Origin: Actinomycetota bacterium | Lineage (GTDB): Bacteria; Actinomycetota; UBA4738; HRBIN12 | Reading direction: 5' to 3' | Assembly: GCA_005884925.1 (NCBI GenBank) | Contig: VAYU01000023.1 | Span: forward strand, 62,001-126,000 | DNA: 64,000 nucleotides | In this document: positions 9,922 through 49,680 of the stretch, in pieces | Layout of the letters: each line of letters begins with the position of its first letter | Position numbering within the stretch: the stretch's first letter is position 1 | Position numbers and translations under genes: made by a program | The notes under the pieces: generated by a model | Databases searched by the model: none | What the model was told of the DNA's origin: nothing | The model's input: only the letters and a program-made list of their open reading frames with translations

Positions 9922-12900
9922 TCAGACGTGCCAGGTCGTCGGTACGCGCGGGTCCGGAACGTAGGAGCAGAACGTGCCCGTCCGGATCGTGTTGGCGAGG
10001 TGGTGCCAGAGCGCCGGCTCCTGCTCGCGGATCCTCGCCAGCGCGGTCTTGATCGCCTTCGTCACGTTGACCCTGGCTCTCTCGGCATCGGAAGGAGCAC
10101 GCCGGTCTCTCCCGCCGATCCCGATGGCGACGGCGAGCTCTCTTGCCAGGAGATCCCTCTCATCGAGAGCCCGTGCCGCACGCTCATGGTCGGCGCGCTC
10201 TTCGGCCTCGTCGATCTCGCTTTCGAGTTCCTGGAGCCGCCCGCGGTACGCCTCCTTGGCACGGGTATCCAGGAGCTCACCGCTCCCTCCCGGATCGCCA
10301 CGAAGGGTGTATCCGGTTTCGCTGCGTAGCGCACGTGCGTTCGCCCCGCTACGGGTCGCGCGACCAGCTGTCATCAGGTCAAGGGCCAAGAACTCGCGTC
10401 CCGGGTTCGCCAGCAGCTCGGCCAGATAGTGGAGACCTTTGGAGTCCTTCAGGCGGAAGGTTTCGTCCTCGAACGTGATCGACCAGTACTCGCCCTCACG
10501 ACGGAAGACGTTGCCCCGGCGCACGGGTTCCTTTGCGGAACCGTCCTGCATCGTGACAGCACCCAGGCGGGTTCCTTCCGTCCCGAGCATCGCCCCGATC
10601 TTCTGACCCAGCGCCCGCATGCCGAGCTGCTCACCGGTCGCGGCGGCTTCTGCCAACAGGTTCTCGGCGTGCTCCCGGTCGCCCGGTGCATCACGCCCGA
10701 AGAGCATCCGCGCGTAGTCGTACTGCGTGTACGCCACCCAAGGGCGCGATCCCATCGCGCCGTTCCGGTCCAACGCCAGGTCGAAGAGAGCCTCAGCCTC
10801 GTCCCATCCTCGGAGGGCCGCCGCGAGGATGCCGACACATCGCGCCATCGAGCCGGTGCTCACCTCGCCGCCCGAAGTAGCGTGGTGTCCCGCATACGGC
10901 CGCAGCAGCTCGAGCAGGGTGCCCGCCCGGTCGGCGTCGCCGAGGTGATCGGCGACCTCGGCGAGGAGGCTCATCTCGAACAGCCAATCGTTGTCTCTCT
11001 TGAGACCGCCGAATCCATCGGCGGCGAGCTGGTCGAACACGCGTCGTGCGTCGCCCGCACGTCGAAGCTCGCGATAGAGGTGAGCAAGCACGCACCGGAG
11101 CACCGGACGCGTCGGGTACTCGGCGAGCGACCGGGTGATGATCGGCTCCATCTCGTCGAGGCGGCCCTGCTCGCGACGAAGCATGTACGACTGGATCCCG
11201 AAACTGAGGATCGCATCCCATCGCTGCGCACGATCGCCGTTGCGCATCGCCTCGGGGATCAACCGCTCCGCCTCATCGAATCTGCCGTCGAACAGCGCCC
11301 GCATCACGCGCGAGGTGAGTACGAGCCAACGCTGGGCAGGTTGACGGAGCTCGTCGACCAGCAACGAGCTCGCATGGATCTCCCTATCGACGGCCGCGAT
11401 GTCTCCCAGTTCATGAAAGGTGACCATGCGCCAGTCGCGGCCCTCCAGGATCCGCTCCGCGTCGCCTGCCTCGATCGCGAGCTGCAGGATCTCCGTCGCG
11501 ATCCCCAGACGCTCCTCGGCATTGTCCGGCCACCACGTCGCGGCGAAACTGCCCGCGAGGGCGTAGGAGAGCGTCGCGGGGTCCCCGGTCCGGCGGGCGA
11601 TCTCGACGGCCTCATGGCTGAGCCGGTGAAGCTCGTCCGGCGATCGCTCGTCCCGGAGCGCCCCAGCGAGCCGCGACATCAGTCTGGCCCTGACCCGGCT
11701 GTCGCCGGTCGGCTGGGATCTCAGCGCTCGCTCGAGGAGGGGGACCAGCCGGCGATCGCTTCCGGCGCGAGCCCAGACGAACCTCCCCCCGTAGCCGAGG
11801 GCCGCGGCAGCGAGCTGCTCGGACATCGAGCGCTTCTCGGCGACCTCTGCCGCGCGCAGGAACGTCTCTTTGGCCCCTTCCAGGTCACCTTCGCGCGCCT
11901 GACAATCGCCGAGGGCGAGGAGCAAGCGGCACCGGTCTTCGGCATCAGTCGGGCGCTTCCTTTCCAGGATCTGGAGCGCGAGCCCGAAGAGGCGGACTCC
12001 TTCCTCGTAGGCGAGGAGGGCCGCGGCTCGCTCGGCCGCGCCCGACGCGTATCCGATCGCCTTGTCGGCTTCGCCCAGCGGCGCGGCCTCGCAGAAATGG
12101 TGGGCAAGCTCCGCGAGGTGTGGCTCGGGATCGTCGGCGTACAGGGACTCCAGCATCTCGCCCACGTCTCGGTGGATCCGCATCCGTTCCGCGGTCGTCA
12201 ACCCTTCGAAGACGACATCGCGGACAAGTCCGTGAGAGAAGCTCATGCGGCCGGACGCGGCCGGCATCTCGGTCACGACACGCGCGGCGACGGCCTCGTC
12301 GACGATCTGCAGGAGCTCGTCCGTAGGCAGTCCGCTCGCGCGTGCGAGCGCGTCGAGCTGGAACTCCCGGCCGAGGACCGACGCGAGGGACAGGACGTGA
12401 CGACATCGCTCGGAGAGGAGGCCCAGACGTCGGCCGATCACCTCCCGGATCCGCGCCGGGATCTCGGCGCGCGCCAGGGTTGCCTCGTCGGTGTCCTCGA
12501 GGCGGCCTTCAGCCACCAGGAGCCGGATCACCTCGTTCACGTATAGCGGGTTCCCCTCGGTCTGCCCCTGCACGGCCTCGATCACGGCCGGCGGAACCTG
12601 GACGTCGACGGTCGCTTGGATCAACGCCGCGACATCGGGGCGCTCGAGACCCGCCAAGGAGGTCTGTCGGGTCGCCATGTGACGGGCCACCTCCGCCACC
12701 GTGGAGGTGAGATGAGGGTTCTCCGGCCCGTCATCCCGGTACAGCCCAACCAGGAGGAGATGGGTGTCATCGATCTCGCTCGCGACGAACCGGAGAAGGA
12801 GGAGTGACGGAGCGTCCGCAGCTTGGAGGTCGTCGAGCACGAGGACGAGCGGCTGGACGCCAGCGGCGATGCGAAGGAAGGCGACCGTCGAGTCGAACAG

Positions 12901-13371
12901 ACGGAACCGCGCCCCTTCAGGGTCGGACGAAGCCGACACGCGCACCTCGGGGAATTGGTCCCGGAGCTCGGGCAGAACCTGGGCGATGTCCGGTGCCCCC
13001 GACCCGAGTTGGACGAGAAGCGTCTCCGGATCCTGATCCCGCACATACGACCGGAGCGCTTGGACCCAAGGCCAATACGCGGGAGCCCCTCCCGCCTCCC
13101 AGCAACGACCCCAGAGGACCCGAGCCCCTCGGTCCCGTGCGCGGCTCGCCAGCTCATCGACGAGGCGAGTCTTACCGATCCCTGCTTCCCCGCCGATCAG
13201 GAAGACCCTTCCCCGCCCCGCCAGCGCATCGCCGAGGCCCGCTTCGAGCTCCGCCAGTTCGCGTTGGCGCCCCACGAAGACATCCCCCTCCTGAGCGCCA
13301 AGATGCACCCCGTCTTCCGGCACGGAGGTCTTGCGCAACGCGGACGGCACGGGAACGTTCAGATCGGCCAC
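9922..13371 (-). CDS. Large AAA/STAND-type ATPase with TPR-like region and conserved C-terminal domain
   Basis: VFVGRQRELAELE..., Walker A GGEAGIGKTRLVDEL, Walker B VLVLDDLQAAD; C-terminal FRLKDSKGLHYLAELLANPGREFLALDL; start uncertain (ORF extends to 13635). Confidence 0.82.
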   Translation of the reverse strand: MADLNVPVPSALRKTSVPEDGVHLGAQEGDVFVGRQRELAELEAGLGDALAGRGRVFLIGGEAGIGKTRLVDELASRARDRGARVLWGRCWEAGGAPAYWPWVQALRSYVRDQDPETLLVQLGSGAPDIAQVLPELRDQFPEVRVSASSDPEGARFRLFDSTVAFLRIAAGVQPLVLVLDDLQAADAPSLLLLRFVASEIDDTHLLLVGLYRDDGPENPHLTSTVAEVARHMATRQTSLAGLERPDVAALIQATVDVQVPPAVIEAVQGQTEGNPLYVNEVIRLLVAEGRLEDTDEATLARAEIPARIREVIGRRLGLLSERCRHVLSLASVLGREFQLDALARASGLPTDELLQIVDEAVAARVVTEMPAASGRMSFSHGLVRDVVFEGLTTAERMRIHRDVGEMLESLYADDPEPHLAELAHHFCEAAPLGEADKAIGYASGAAERAAALLAYEEGVRLFGLALQILERKRPTDAEDRCRLLLALGDCQAREGDLEGAKETFLRAAEVAEKRSMSEQLAAAALGYGGRFVWARAGSDRRLVPLLERALRSQPTGDSRVRARLMSRLAGALRDERSPDELHRLSHEAVEIARRTGDPATLSYALAGSFAATWWPDNAEERLGIATEILQLAIEAGDAERILEGRDWRMVTFHELGDIAAVDREIHASSLLVDELRQPAQRWLVLTSRVMRALFDGRFDEAERLIPEAMRNGDRAQRWDAILSFGIQSYMLRREQGRLDEMEPIITRSLAEYPTRPVLRCVLAHLYRELRRAGDARRVFDQLAADGFGGLKRDNDWLFEMSLLAEVADHLGDADRAGTLLELLRPYAGHHATSGGEVSTGSMARCVGILAAALRGWDEAEALFDLALDRNGAMGSRPWVAYTQYDYARMLFGRDAPGDREHAENLLAEAAATGEQLGMRALGQKIGAMLGTEGTRLGAVTMQDGSAKEPVRRGNVFRREGEYWSITFEDETFRLKDSKGLHYLAELLANPGREFLALDLMTAGRATRSGANARALRSETGYTLRGDPGGSGELLDTRAKEAYRGRLQELESEIDEAEERADHERAARALDERDLLARELAVAIGIGGRDRRAPSDAERARVNVTKAIKTALARIREQEPALWHHLANTIRTGTFCSYVPDPRVPTTWHV

Positions 13372-13560
13372 CTCGGAGCTCGCTTCCTGACGTTCTATCC
13401 CCCCGCATGCTTGAGCGCCACCCTCCCCGAGGGCTTGCGCGCGGCGACCTTTCCGGAAGTGTGGCGATCGGTGACCGTCGGGTGCCCGCTCGCCTGATGC
13501 CCGAGACTTCGTCGGAGGGTCGAGCGGGATACCGTGCTTCGCGATCCCAGATGAGGTCGC

Positions 13561-13588
13561 ATAACCGCGACCCCGCCAGAAGCGTCTC
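13561..13588 (+). promoter_or_regulatory. Candidate ECF sigma promoter (copy 1) ATAACC-N16-CGTCTC
   Basis: ataacc 13561-13566, 16 nt, cgtctc 13583-13588; same sequence and spacing as copy at 14705. Confidence 0.65.
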
Positions 13589-13615
13589 CACTTCGTGAGG
13601 TGATGCAGGAGGCTC

Positions 13616-14137
13616 GTGCTCGAGGAGGCGGACATCCGGGCGTTCTTATCGTCGGACTACCCCCGGCTGGTCGCCGGCCTCGGTCTCGTGCTCGGCGGAC
13701 AAGCCGCCGCCGAGGATGCCGTCCAGGAGGCCCTGGCGCGAGCGTGGGAGCGATCCTTGCGCGGTGAAGCGATCGACTCGCTGCGGGACTGGGTTGCCGT
13801 CGTGGCCATGAACCTGCTCCGCAGCAGATTGCGCAGGCTCGGGGCCGAGCGGCGAGCGACGGAGCGCGCGGCCGCCCGTCAACCCGGGCACGCGCAAGCG
13901 GACGCGACTCGGTCATCCCCCGATGAACACCTCGATCTTGCCGCAGCCTTGCGGACGCTGCCCGCGCGTCAACGGGAGGCGGTGGTGCTCCACTACTTCG
14001 CCGGACTCGGTGTTGCGGAGATCGCGCGGGCCATGCGGACGCGGGAGGGGGCGGCCAGGGGCTTGCTCCATCGGGGTCGGCGGTCCCTGGCTGCTGCCCT
14101 TGGCCCGAGCTACCGAACCGGGGTGCTCGATGCCTGA
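13616..14137 (+). CDS. ECF-type RNA polymerase sigma factor (sigma-70 family)
   Basis: Region 2 AAEDAVQEALARAWER...WVAVVAMNLLRSRLRR and region 4 LPARQREAVVLHYFAGLGVAEIARAM; GTG start behind CAGGAGG. Confidence 0.88.
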   Translation: MLEEADIRAFLSSDYPRLVAGLGLVLGGQAAAEDAVQEALARAWERSLRGEAIDSLRDWVAVVAMNLLRSRLRRLGAERRATERAAARQPGHAQADATRSSPDEHLDLAAALRTLPARQREAVVLHYFAGLGVAEIARAMRTREGAARGLLHRGRRSLAAALGPSYRTGVLDA

Positions 14138-14687
14138 CCTCGACGAGCACGTACGCACGGAGGTCGAGCGCATGGCCCGGCAGGTGGACACCTCCGGTGC
14201 GCTCCCTGCAGTCGCGCGACGGGTTCGCCGGCGGCGGGTCCTGCGGGCGGTGGAGAAGGGATCCCTCATCGCGGTGGTCCTTGTCGGGACCCTTCTCGGG
14301 ATCGTCGAGATGCGCCTCTTCACCAGCTCGAACACAGCAGGCGAGGGCGCCACGAGGACACGGATCGCATCCGCGACCATCGCGGGCGATCTCGAGGTCG
14401 TCCTGATCGCTGAGCGGGCGTCGGCAGGGGGTGTGGAGGCAACGGTCCACGCGATCGTCCTGACCAACCGTGATGGGCGGTGGCGCGTCACCGGGGACGC
14501 GCTCGTGGGCTCGCGGGACGGCTGGCGGTGGGACCGCTCCATAGCGCCGGGCGGTGTCTGCCGACTCGTGGCTGCGGACGCGCCGCCCAGTGCATACATC
14601 GAGGTCAGCCTTGCGACCGACGAGACCGATGGATGCTCCGCGCCGTTCCTGTTCGCCGTCGAGCGCGGACGAGTGGTCTCTCGATGA
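14130..14687 (+). CDS. Single-pass membrane protein, putative cognate anti-sigma factor
   Basis: ATG overlaps sigma stop; short cytosolic N-terminus, TM SLIAVVLVGTLLGIVEM, extracytoplasmic domain with two Cys. Confidence 0.65.
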   Translation: MPDLDEHVRTEVERMARQVDTSGALPAVARRVRRRRVLRAVEKGSLIAVVLVGTLLGIVEMRLFTSSNTAGEGATRTRIASATIAGDLEVVLIAERASAGGVEATVHAIVLTNRDGRWRVTGDALVGSRDGWRWDRSIAPGGVCRLVAADAPPSAYIEVSLATDETDGCSAPFLFAVERGRVVSR

Positions 14688-14704
14688 GAACGTCGCGCCA
14701 CGAC

Positions 14705-14732
14705 ATAACCTCCGCAGCTCCGTGGGCGTCTC
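14705..14732 (+). promoter_or_regulatory. Candidate ECF sigma promoter (copy 2) ATAACC-N16-CGTCTC
   Basis: ataacc 14705-14710, 16 nt, cgtctc 14727-14732. Confidence 0.65.
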
Positions 14733-14762
14733 AAGGATGAGGAACTCAGAGGAGGTGCATCC

Positions 14763-15209
14763 ATGCTGCGGTTGTTGAGGAGGTCTCGGATCATCCTCCC
14801 GGTGGTGGCTCTGGGGTTGGCGCTCTTGGCGATCGTGGGATCCGCCTACGCGTCGTCCCGTGCCTCGGCGGCGGATACGACCAAGCAGATCGCTACCGCC
14901 ACGCTGGGTCACGACTTCCGCGTGACCCTCCAGGCCGTCCAGGGCTCGGGAGGCGGCGCGACGATATCCGTCGCCGCCTTCGAGTTCATCGACGGCGCGT
15001 GGAAGTCACTCGGCCGGCAGACGGTGGGTGACCCGAACGGCTGGCTGTGGCCCGTCGTGACCGATGGCGGGGCCATCTGCCGGTTCGCAACCAGCGACGT
15101 GGATCCGTACCCCATCGAGGTCAGGCTGCTGCTCTCGCCGAGCATCGGCTGCTCCCCGGCGACCTACAACTTCCACGTGGACACGTACGACGAGCTCGTC
15201 CCTGGATAG
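14763..15209 (+). CDS. Secreted small protein similar to extracytoplasmic domain of the upstream putative anti-sigma factor
   Basis: Signal peptide; IATATLGHDFRVTLQAV...GGAICRF...IGCSPA aligns with IASATIAGDLEVVLIAE...GGVCRLV...DGCSAP; RBS GAGGAGG. Confidence 0.75.
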   Translation: MLRLLRRSRIILPVVALGLALLAIVGSAYASSRASAADTTKQIATATLGHDFRVTLQAVQGSGGGATISVAAFEFIDGAWKSLGRQTVGDPNGWLWPVVTDGGAICRFATSDVDPYPIEVRLLLSPSIGCSPATYNFHVDTYDELVPG

Positions 15210-15358
15210 GCCTCATCAGCTCGCCGATGCAGGTCAGCAGGATCCCCACGGGTGCACCGCACGCTGCGCTCGGGCAAGATCGTGATCTTGATGACGCGGG
15301 AGACCGTTCCGGCGGGGATGTCAGGGGTGCCATCTTGACCCACGTAGTCTGCCGAGCT

Positions 15359-15898
15359 GTGAACAACTCAGGTGTCGTGATCCGGGGTGAGCGGGTCGTG
15401 CTTCGACCGTTCCGGCCGGAGGAGCTCGACCAGTGGCATAGCGCCAGGATGGCCAGCGCCGACGATCGCACCCAGTTCCCCGTTGGCCCGCCCGACCCGG
15501 AAAGGCTCTGTGAGCGTGTCGAGCGGTCGGGCGAGCTGCGTCACGGCACCCTGGACCTGGCCGTTGACGTCGATGGCCGGCTGATCGGAGAGATCGGGAC
15601 CTACGCGGAGCCCGGTCGGGAGATGCGGCCCGGCTTGTTCTTCCTGTCGATCGCGCTGTTCCGTCCGCAGGACCGCGGCCGTGGCCTGGGTACCGACGCC
15701 GTCCGCGTGCTGTGCGACTGGTTGTTCCGATCGGCCGGTGCGGAACGGATCGAGAGCTCGACCGCGATATCGAACCCAGCCATGCGCGGAGTCTTCGAGA
15801 AGCTCGGTTTCGGGTTCGAGGGCGTGAAGAGCCGCTGGGACGTCGATTGGGCCCACTATGCGGTGTCCCGCGAGCAGTGGAACGTGGATCCCTCGTGA
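15359..15898 (+). CDS. GNAT family N-acetyltransferase
   Basis: GERVVLRPFRPEELDQW...RPQDRGRGLGTDAVRVLCDWLF...NPAMRGVFEKLGFGFEG. Confidence 0.88.
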   Translation: MNNSGVVIRGERVVLRPFRPEELDQWHSARMASADDRTQFPVGPPDPERLCERVERSGELRHGTLDLAVDVDGRLIGEIGTYAEPGREMRPGLFFLSIALFRPQDRGRGLGTDAVRVLCDWLFRSAGAERIESSTAISNPAMRGVFEKLGFGFEGVKSRWDVDWAHYAVSREQWNVDPS

Positions 15899-48996: not shown

Positions 48997-49680
48997 CTAC
49001 GCCCCCATCGGGAGCTCTTCGTGCACGCGACCGGCTTCCAGGCGCATGCGGCGCGGCGCCCGCATCGCCACCAGGTCGTCGTGCGTCACGACGATCAGCG
49101 TGACTCCATGGGTCGTCCACAGCTCTTCGAGCAACCCAACGATCTCGTCGCGCGTCTCCTGATCGAGGTTTCCGGTCGGTTCGTCCGCAAGGACGACGCG
49201 CGGCTCCTTGACCAACGCTCTCGCGATGGCGGTCCGTTGTTGCTCGCCGCCGGAAAGCTCGCCGGGGAGATGCGCGGCTCGATGCGACAGCCCGACCTCG
49301 GCCAGAGCCTCTTCCGCTCGCCGTCGTCGCTCGACACCGTGCACGCCGAGAGGGACCAGAGCCGTCTCGACGTTCTCGCAGCTGGAGAGCGTGGGGATCA
49401 GGTTGAACGTTTGGAAGACGAACCCGAGGTCGTGGGCGCGCAACCGCGTCAGCTGGCCCTCCGAGAGCGCGCCCAGCTCGCGGCCGTCGTACACAACGGT
49501 CCCGCTCGTCTGGCGGTCCATGCCGCCGAGCAGCTGGAGCAACGTGCTCTTGCCCTGACCGGTCGGCCCTTGGATCGCGACGAACTCCCCGTCGCCGATC
49601 GAGAGGTCGACGCCCGCGAGGGCATCGACCGACCCTCGCCCGTTGCCGTAGCGCTTCGTGACATCGTTCAGCTCGTACAT
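48997..49680 (-). CDS. ABC transporter ATP-binding protein (MacB/LolD-like)
   Basis: GPTGQGKSTLLQLLGGMDR; LSGGEQQRTAIARALVKEPRVVLADEPTGNLD. Confidence 0.93.
   Translation of the reverse strand: MYELNDVTKRYGNGRGSVDALAGVDLSIGDGEFVAIQGPTGQGKSTLLQLLGGMDRQTSGTVVYDGRELGALSEGQLTRLRAHDLGFVFQTFNLIPTLSSCENVETALVPLGVHGVERRRRAEEALAEVGLSHRAAHLPGELSGGEQQRTAIARALVKEPRVVLADEPTGNLDQETRDEIVGLLEELWTTHGVTLIVVTHDDLVAMRAPRRMRLEAGRVHEELPMGA

Follow-up and report, generated by a model that had tools for sequence, protein, structure and literature searches.

Our analysis favours a small local circuit in which a stress-type ECF sigma factor activates both its own operon and a neighbouring gene through two matching promoters, the second gene encoding a free copy of the sensor domain of its own anti-sigma factor; we put the probability of this reading at roughly 75%. 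The host is an uncultured actinobacterial lineage, and the window analysed here is the whole 64,000-nucleotide stretch taken from its contig VAYU01000023.1. The two promoters, the sigma/anti-sigma operon and a second target gene were outlined in the original prediction, which missed the nature of the second target, a paralog of the sensor domain of the anti-sigma factor itself. The features are collected in Table 1.

Table 1. Features of the sigma/anti-sigma locus (window positions).
Feature	Position	Strand	Basis
ECF-type promoter 1	13561-13588	+	ATAACC 13561-13566 (-35), N16, CGTCTC 13583-13588 (-10); 5' of the sigma gene
ECF sigma factor gene, 173 aa, GTG start	13616-14137	+	RBS AGGAGG 13607-13612; Pfam domains; identity in related genomes
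Anti-sigma factor gene, 185 aa	14130-14687	+	Overlaps the sigma stop by 8 nt; N-terminal HMM match; conserved position
Anti-sigma extracytoplasmic domain	14352-14684	+	Paralogous to the product of 14763-15209
ECF-type promoter 2	14705-14732	+	ATAACC 14705-14710, N16, CGTCTC 14727-14732; 5' of gene 14763-15209
Target gene, 148 aa	14763-15209	+	RBS AGGAGG 14750-14755; N-terminal signal/TM segment; sensor-domain copy about 14877-15206

Both copies of ATAACC-N16-CGTCTC lie exactly where they had been placed, on the plus strand, with all 12 box bases identical and with 16-nt spacers that differ in sequence. Their distances to the start codons, given originally as about 27 and 30 bp, measure 27 nt from the end of box 1 to the GTG and 30 nt from the end of box 2 to the ATG. 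Each start is preceded by an AGGAGG ribosome-binding site, box 2 begins 18 nt past the anti-sigma stop, and identity between the promoters runs one base beyond the boxes, to a C before ATAACC and a G before CGTCTC. The pattern has two exact matches in the window, where 0.01 would be expected by chance, and two exact matches were seen in 0 of 100 shuffles of the window. A search of the whole genome (2,702,093 bases), which the original prediction had proposed, returned the same two sites only, and the reversed control pattern gave 0 matches; this assembly is 92% complete, and targets with spacers outside the searched lengths could be missed. Duplication of a promoter segment, already argued against in the original prediction, was set aside: the local alignment score of 16 was reached in 22 of 500 shuffles, and the alignment leaves the boxes out of register. 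A third match to the core, CAACC-N16-CGTCA at 14465-14490, is within the anti-sigma gene, not before a start codon, and is probably due to chance.

The sigma gene encodes a protein with Sigma70_r2 at residues 15-76 and Sigma70_r4_2 at residues 107-158, both above the Pfam cut-off and with no other domain outside these, which is the layout of an ECF (group IV) factor, having regions 2 and 4 only and a short linker. An AAC-type -35 and a CGT-type -10 stand before its operon, and a cognate anti-sigma factor is probably co-transcribed, judging from the 8-nt overlap and the homology of the anti-sigma N-terminus; such boxes, a co-transcribed anti-sigma factor and autoregulation are the hallmarks of ECF systems (PMC8103513). 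The best NCBIfam family is SigE-fam_strep (TIGR02983), to which the protein is not assigned, since its 102.6 bits fall below the curated cut-off of 141.55 bits. The divergent neighbour (9922-13371, minus strand) encodes a large AAA_16/TPR regulator-like ATPase, and no core box faces it.

The anti-sigma gene directly follows the sigma gene, a position conserved in relatives. Residues 1-68 of its product comprise the sigma-binding segment and a TM helix, and the extracytoplasmic domain spans about residues 75-185. An HMM built from 18 related anti-sigma N-termini, with the window protein left out, matches residues 1-68 (E 1.6e-15). The predicted sigma/anti-sigma operon is supported. About 43 residues, counted by eye from the sequence, precede the single TM segment; with one helix and an outside domain, the protein would belong to the short-N-terminal, class II-like (CnrY/Tt-TolB type) anti-sigma factors, whose cytoplasmic segment is under 50 aa (PMC7406223). 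On the shared N-terminus, the outside modules of the clade vary, and include PD40 propellers, BNR repeats, DUF4232, PKD and others without assignment. One further protein (L273, G004:C18 near 107332) is TM-anchored and carries the TM segment and outside module of a clade anti-sigma factor without the sigma-binding N-terminus; no core box was found 5' of this orphan.

Searches with the sigma protein covered 61 related genomes, in which sigma factors 50-60% identical to it occur, and the GTDB species genomes; the 5' regions of close relatives (about 46-62% sigma identity) were compared as 25 deduplicated loci, window included. AAC[CG]-N16-CGTC lies 5' of 23 of these 25 sigma genes, at -43 to -116 relative to the aligned first codon and mostly near -50; the spacer is 16 nt in all 23, and a G precedes CGTC in 22. 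Shuffled 5' regions, by comparison, had the box in a mean of 0.08 loci and a maximum of 2. The original prediction expected the boxes to be conserved at orthologous loci, and this is true of the core, AAC(C)-N16-(G)CGTC, but not of the outer letters AT- and -TC, which vary. The window genome is in the same family as G016, whose 5' region at this locus is identical to that of Bacterium HR12. That the boxes are a chance resemblance with no promoter function is highly improbable: although looser forms of the motif often turn up within genes of this GC-rich genome, the place, spacing and core are conserved across the related loci, the shuffled windows held no such pair, and for box 1 this explanation is already close to refuted.

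The two exceptions, L004 and L006, are distant relatives with CAACC followed by GGTGT instead of CGTC. Their sigma region 2.4 reads NRWRS, and that of the other complete clade sequences reads SxxRR, or DGFRR in L136; NRWRS fits a changed reading of the -10 and could, on these two sequences only, mark a natural change of specificity. L136 (G017:C123) is also the sole clade locus with T for the G before CGTC, and the sole one with D for S in region 2.4. Because the box is conserved in relatives and resembles known ECF and Tt-RpoE1 promoters, we infer that box 1 is an ordinary autoregulatory ECF promoter, in keeping with the cognate-type promoter and positive autoregulation originally proposed. 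This part of the finding is ordinary, since it is textbook knowledge that ECF operons activate themselves through AAC/CGT promoters.

How far the boxes reach beyond the locus bears on which sigma factor reads them. The proposal that they could map the whole regulon found no support. Allowing up to 2 mismatches in the exact boxes gave 131 genome matches against 40 for the reversed control, from which nothing informative about a regulon emerged. The relaxed core YAACC-N16-CGTCB has 92 genome matches, 24 of them with GCGTC; by gene calls from a simple codon-usage script, 17 of these 24 are inside genes (two in the window, near 49132 and 59818) and two are intergenic with nothing suitable encoded downstream. 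For lack of a sensible gene downstream, L213, L217 and L230 were rejected as intergenic candidates. The remaining five are both window boxes, two sigma operons on contig C92 and an ECF/anti-sigma operon at C102:5830. Contig C92 (L130, G000:C92:1000-12000) carries three consecutive ECF sigma/anti-sigma operons that are paralogs of one another, with sigma genes at 2036, 3580 and 5993; each has its own CAAC[CG]-N16-CGTC box, which is the CAACG variant in the operon not counted among those five, and matching operons occur in genomes of the same genus (two sigma starts in G002:C138, one in G001:C43). At G000:C102:5830-5855 (L226), a CAACC-N16-CGTCT box stands a few nt before an ECF sigma gene that is more distantly related and is followed by an anti-sigma-like gene. 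The core is common to at least four other ECF sigma operons and otherwise mostly intragenic, so what the box marks is this type of ECF operon, not a broad regulon.

The boxes could then be real ECF promoters used by, or common to, a paralogous sigma factor from the C92 trio or C102:5830, which would make a cross-regulated network instead of a private loop. We regard this as unlikely. CAAC[CG]-N16-CGTC does precede all four of those operons, which weakens the case for recognition by the window sigma alone, and regions 2.4 and 4.2 are similar within the clade. However, the two window boxes look like a matched pair, since both have a T before AACC, found in 1 of 23 clade loci, and -TC after CGTC; and the core box is missing from six further, more distantly related ECF genes in this genome.

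The gene behind the exact box 2 supports the predicted second target as a candidate member of the regulon, and its product is 36% identical to the anti-sigma extracytoplasmic domain over 105 aa (E 9e-16). The sigma-binding segment is absent from it, the anti-sigma N-terminal HMM giving 3.8 bits (E 4.2). Thus, as in the RsiV/LbpA type, a gene of the putative regulon encodes the outside domain of the anti-sigma factor minus the sigma-binding part. The shared domain matches no Pfam or NCBIfam family above cut-off. AlphaFold2 predicts an all-beta domain for residues 41-148 of the target (block mean pLDDT 90 or more), for which a fold search gave no significant PDB match; parts of the DDB1 beta-propeller were weak candidates (TM-score about 0.4, E above 0.03) and were set aside.

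Only 75 nt separate the anti-sigma stop from the ATG of this gene, and no terminator-like site was found in 13350-15450, as would be expected if the gene were the third of the operon, transcribed by read-through, with box 2 a dispensable internal promoter. Yet all 12 bases of box 2 match exactly, and the box is followed at the right spacing by a ribosome-binding site and start of its own; a chance match in the 75-nt gap has a probability of about 2e-4, estimated from the 24 genome matches of YAACC-N15-GCGTCB; we find read-through as the sole route to the gene improbable. The pairing of a second box with a sensor-like gene is absent from all other related loci searched and was seen in the window genome only. 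It may therefore be lineage-specific, and conservation gives no separate support to promoter 2.

Free-standing homologs of the sensor domain were found in a single further genome of the order and in one distant 9.7-Mb genome out of 397 from the phylum, with weak partial matches in three more, and a plasmid search added one homolog from Streptomyces chartreusis. No strong free-standing homolog adjoins a sigma gene: the copies in other Actinomycetota have neither a sigma gene nor a box beside them, and the G018 homolog has no core box upstream. The free homologs score the target above the anti-sigma domain (86.7 and 70.5 vs 63.9 and 31.6 bits), a hint that the free form came first and was later recruited as a sensor. 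A weakly related domain was also seen at the C-terminus of exported proteins (L245, L246 and L247, in G109, G329 and G236); their genes lie behind the ribosomal protein/rpoA cluster, beside a gene like that of ribosomal protein L17 and, in two cases, a truA-like gene.

Targets of SigI/RsgI systems can carry domains related to the RsgI sensors. Clostridium thermocellum resembles the window genome in having several paralogous, autoregulated SigI/RsgI operons with varied outside sensors; SigI is, however, set apart from ECF factors, most of whose features it shares, and the system has different promoters and sensors that bind polysaccharides (PMC6056542). The closest precedent is sigma-V/RsiV/LbpA of Clostridioides difficile, whose regulon includes a membrane-bound relative of the anti-sigma ligand-binding domain: LbpA is related to RsiV, lacks the sigma-binding domain and binds lysozyme, as the RsiV domain does (PMC9044953). 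The window domain, which has no Pfam match, is likened to it by layout, and lbpA lies within the sigma operon, whereas the window target gene has its own promoter copy (PMC9044953).

For the promoter and the anti-sigma factor, Tt-RpoE1/Tt-TolB of Thermoanaerobacter tengcongensis offers a comparison (PMC3397946). There too an ECF sigma gene is directly followed by its anti-sigma gene and is autoregulated with a CGTC -10. Tt-TolB is a proven anti-sigma factor that binds sigma through N-terminal residues 1-39; like the window protein it has a short N-terminal sigma-binding segment, one TM helix and a large outside domain, in its case of the TolB type, and PD40 propellers also occur among the anti-sigma factors of the window clade. 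Tt-RpoE1 differs in using tGTTAC-N16-CGTC, in which N16 lies between AC and CGTC, one base unlike AACC-N16-CGTC, and in the region 2.4 residue that reads -12G, which is D in Tt-RpoE1 and S in the window sigma by alignment to the DXXR motif. No sensor-paralog target was noted in the parts of the paper considered (PMC3397946).

From the boxes, the operon, their conservation and the paralogy, all of which are seen in the DNA itself, we infer promoter activity, a route of sigma release and a shared ligand, as follows. The sigma and membrane anti-sigma genes would form an overlapping operon transcribed from AACC-N16-CGTC, read by the same sigma, and box 2 would drive expression of a free copy of the anti-sigma outside domain, either exported or anchored in the membrane. 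An extracytoplasmic cue acting on that domain would release sigma, which would then raise its own level, that of its inhibitor and that of the free copy. The free copy probably binds a ligand or partner shared with the anti-sigma factor, as an effector, a sink or both, as LbpA does for lysozyme beside RsiV. More tentatively, and at less than even odds, the target, soluble or anchored and induced by sigma, could compete with the anti-sigma sensor for the same ligand, giving negative feedback outside the membrane in an arrangement that arose independently of RsiV/LbpA. Such a competitor arrangement may have arisen by recruitment of the sensor from an exported target protein.

For this uncultured actinobacterial family, the analysis provides a testable promoter code, AACC-N16-CGTC with a G usually preceding CGTC, that applies to a clade of ECF operons, and the anti-sigma factors of the clade carry interchangeable outside sensors. 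The locus would add another case, built on a different domain, to the regulons known to produce their own sensor in free form, and so suggests a recurring design.
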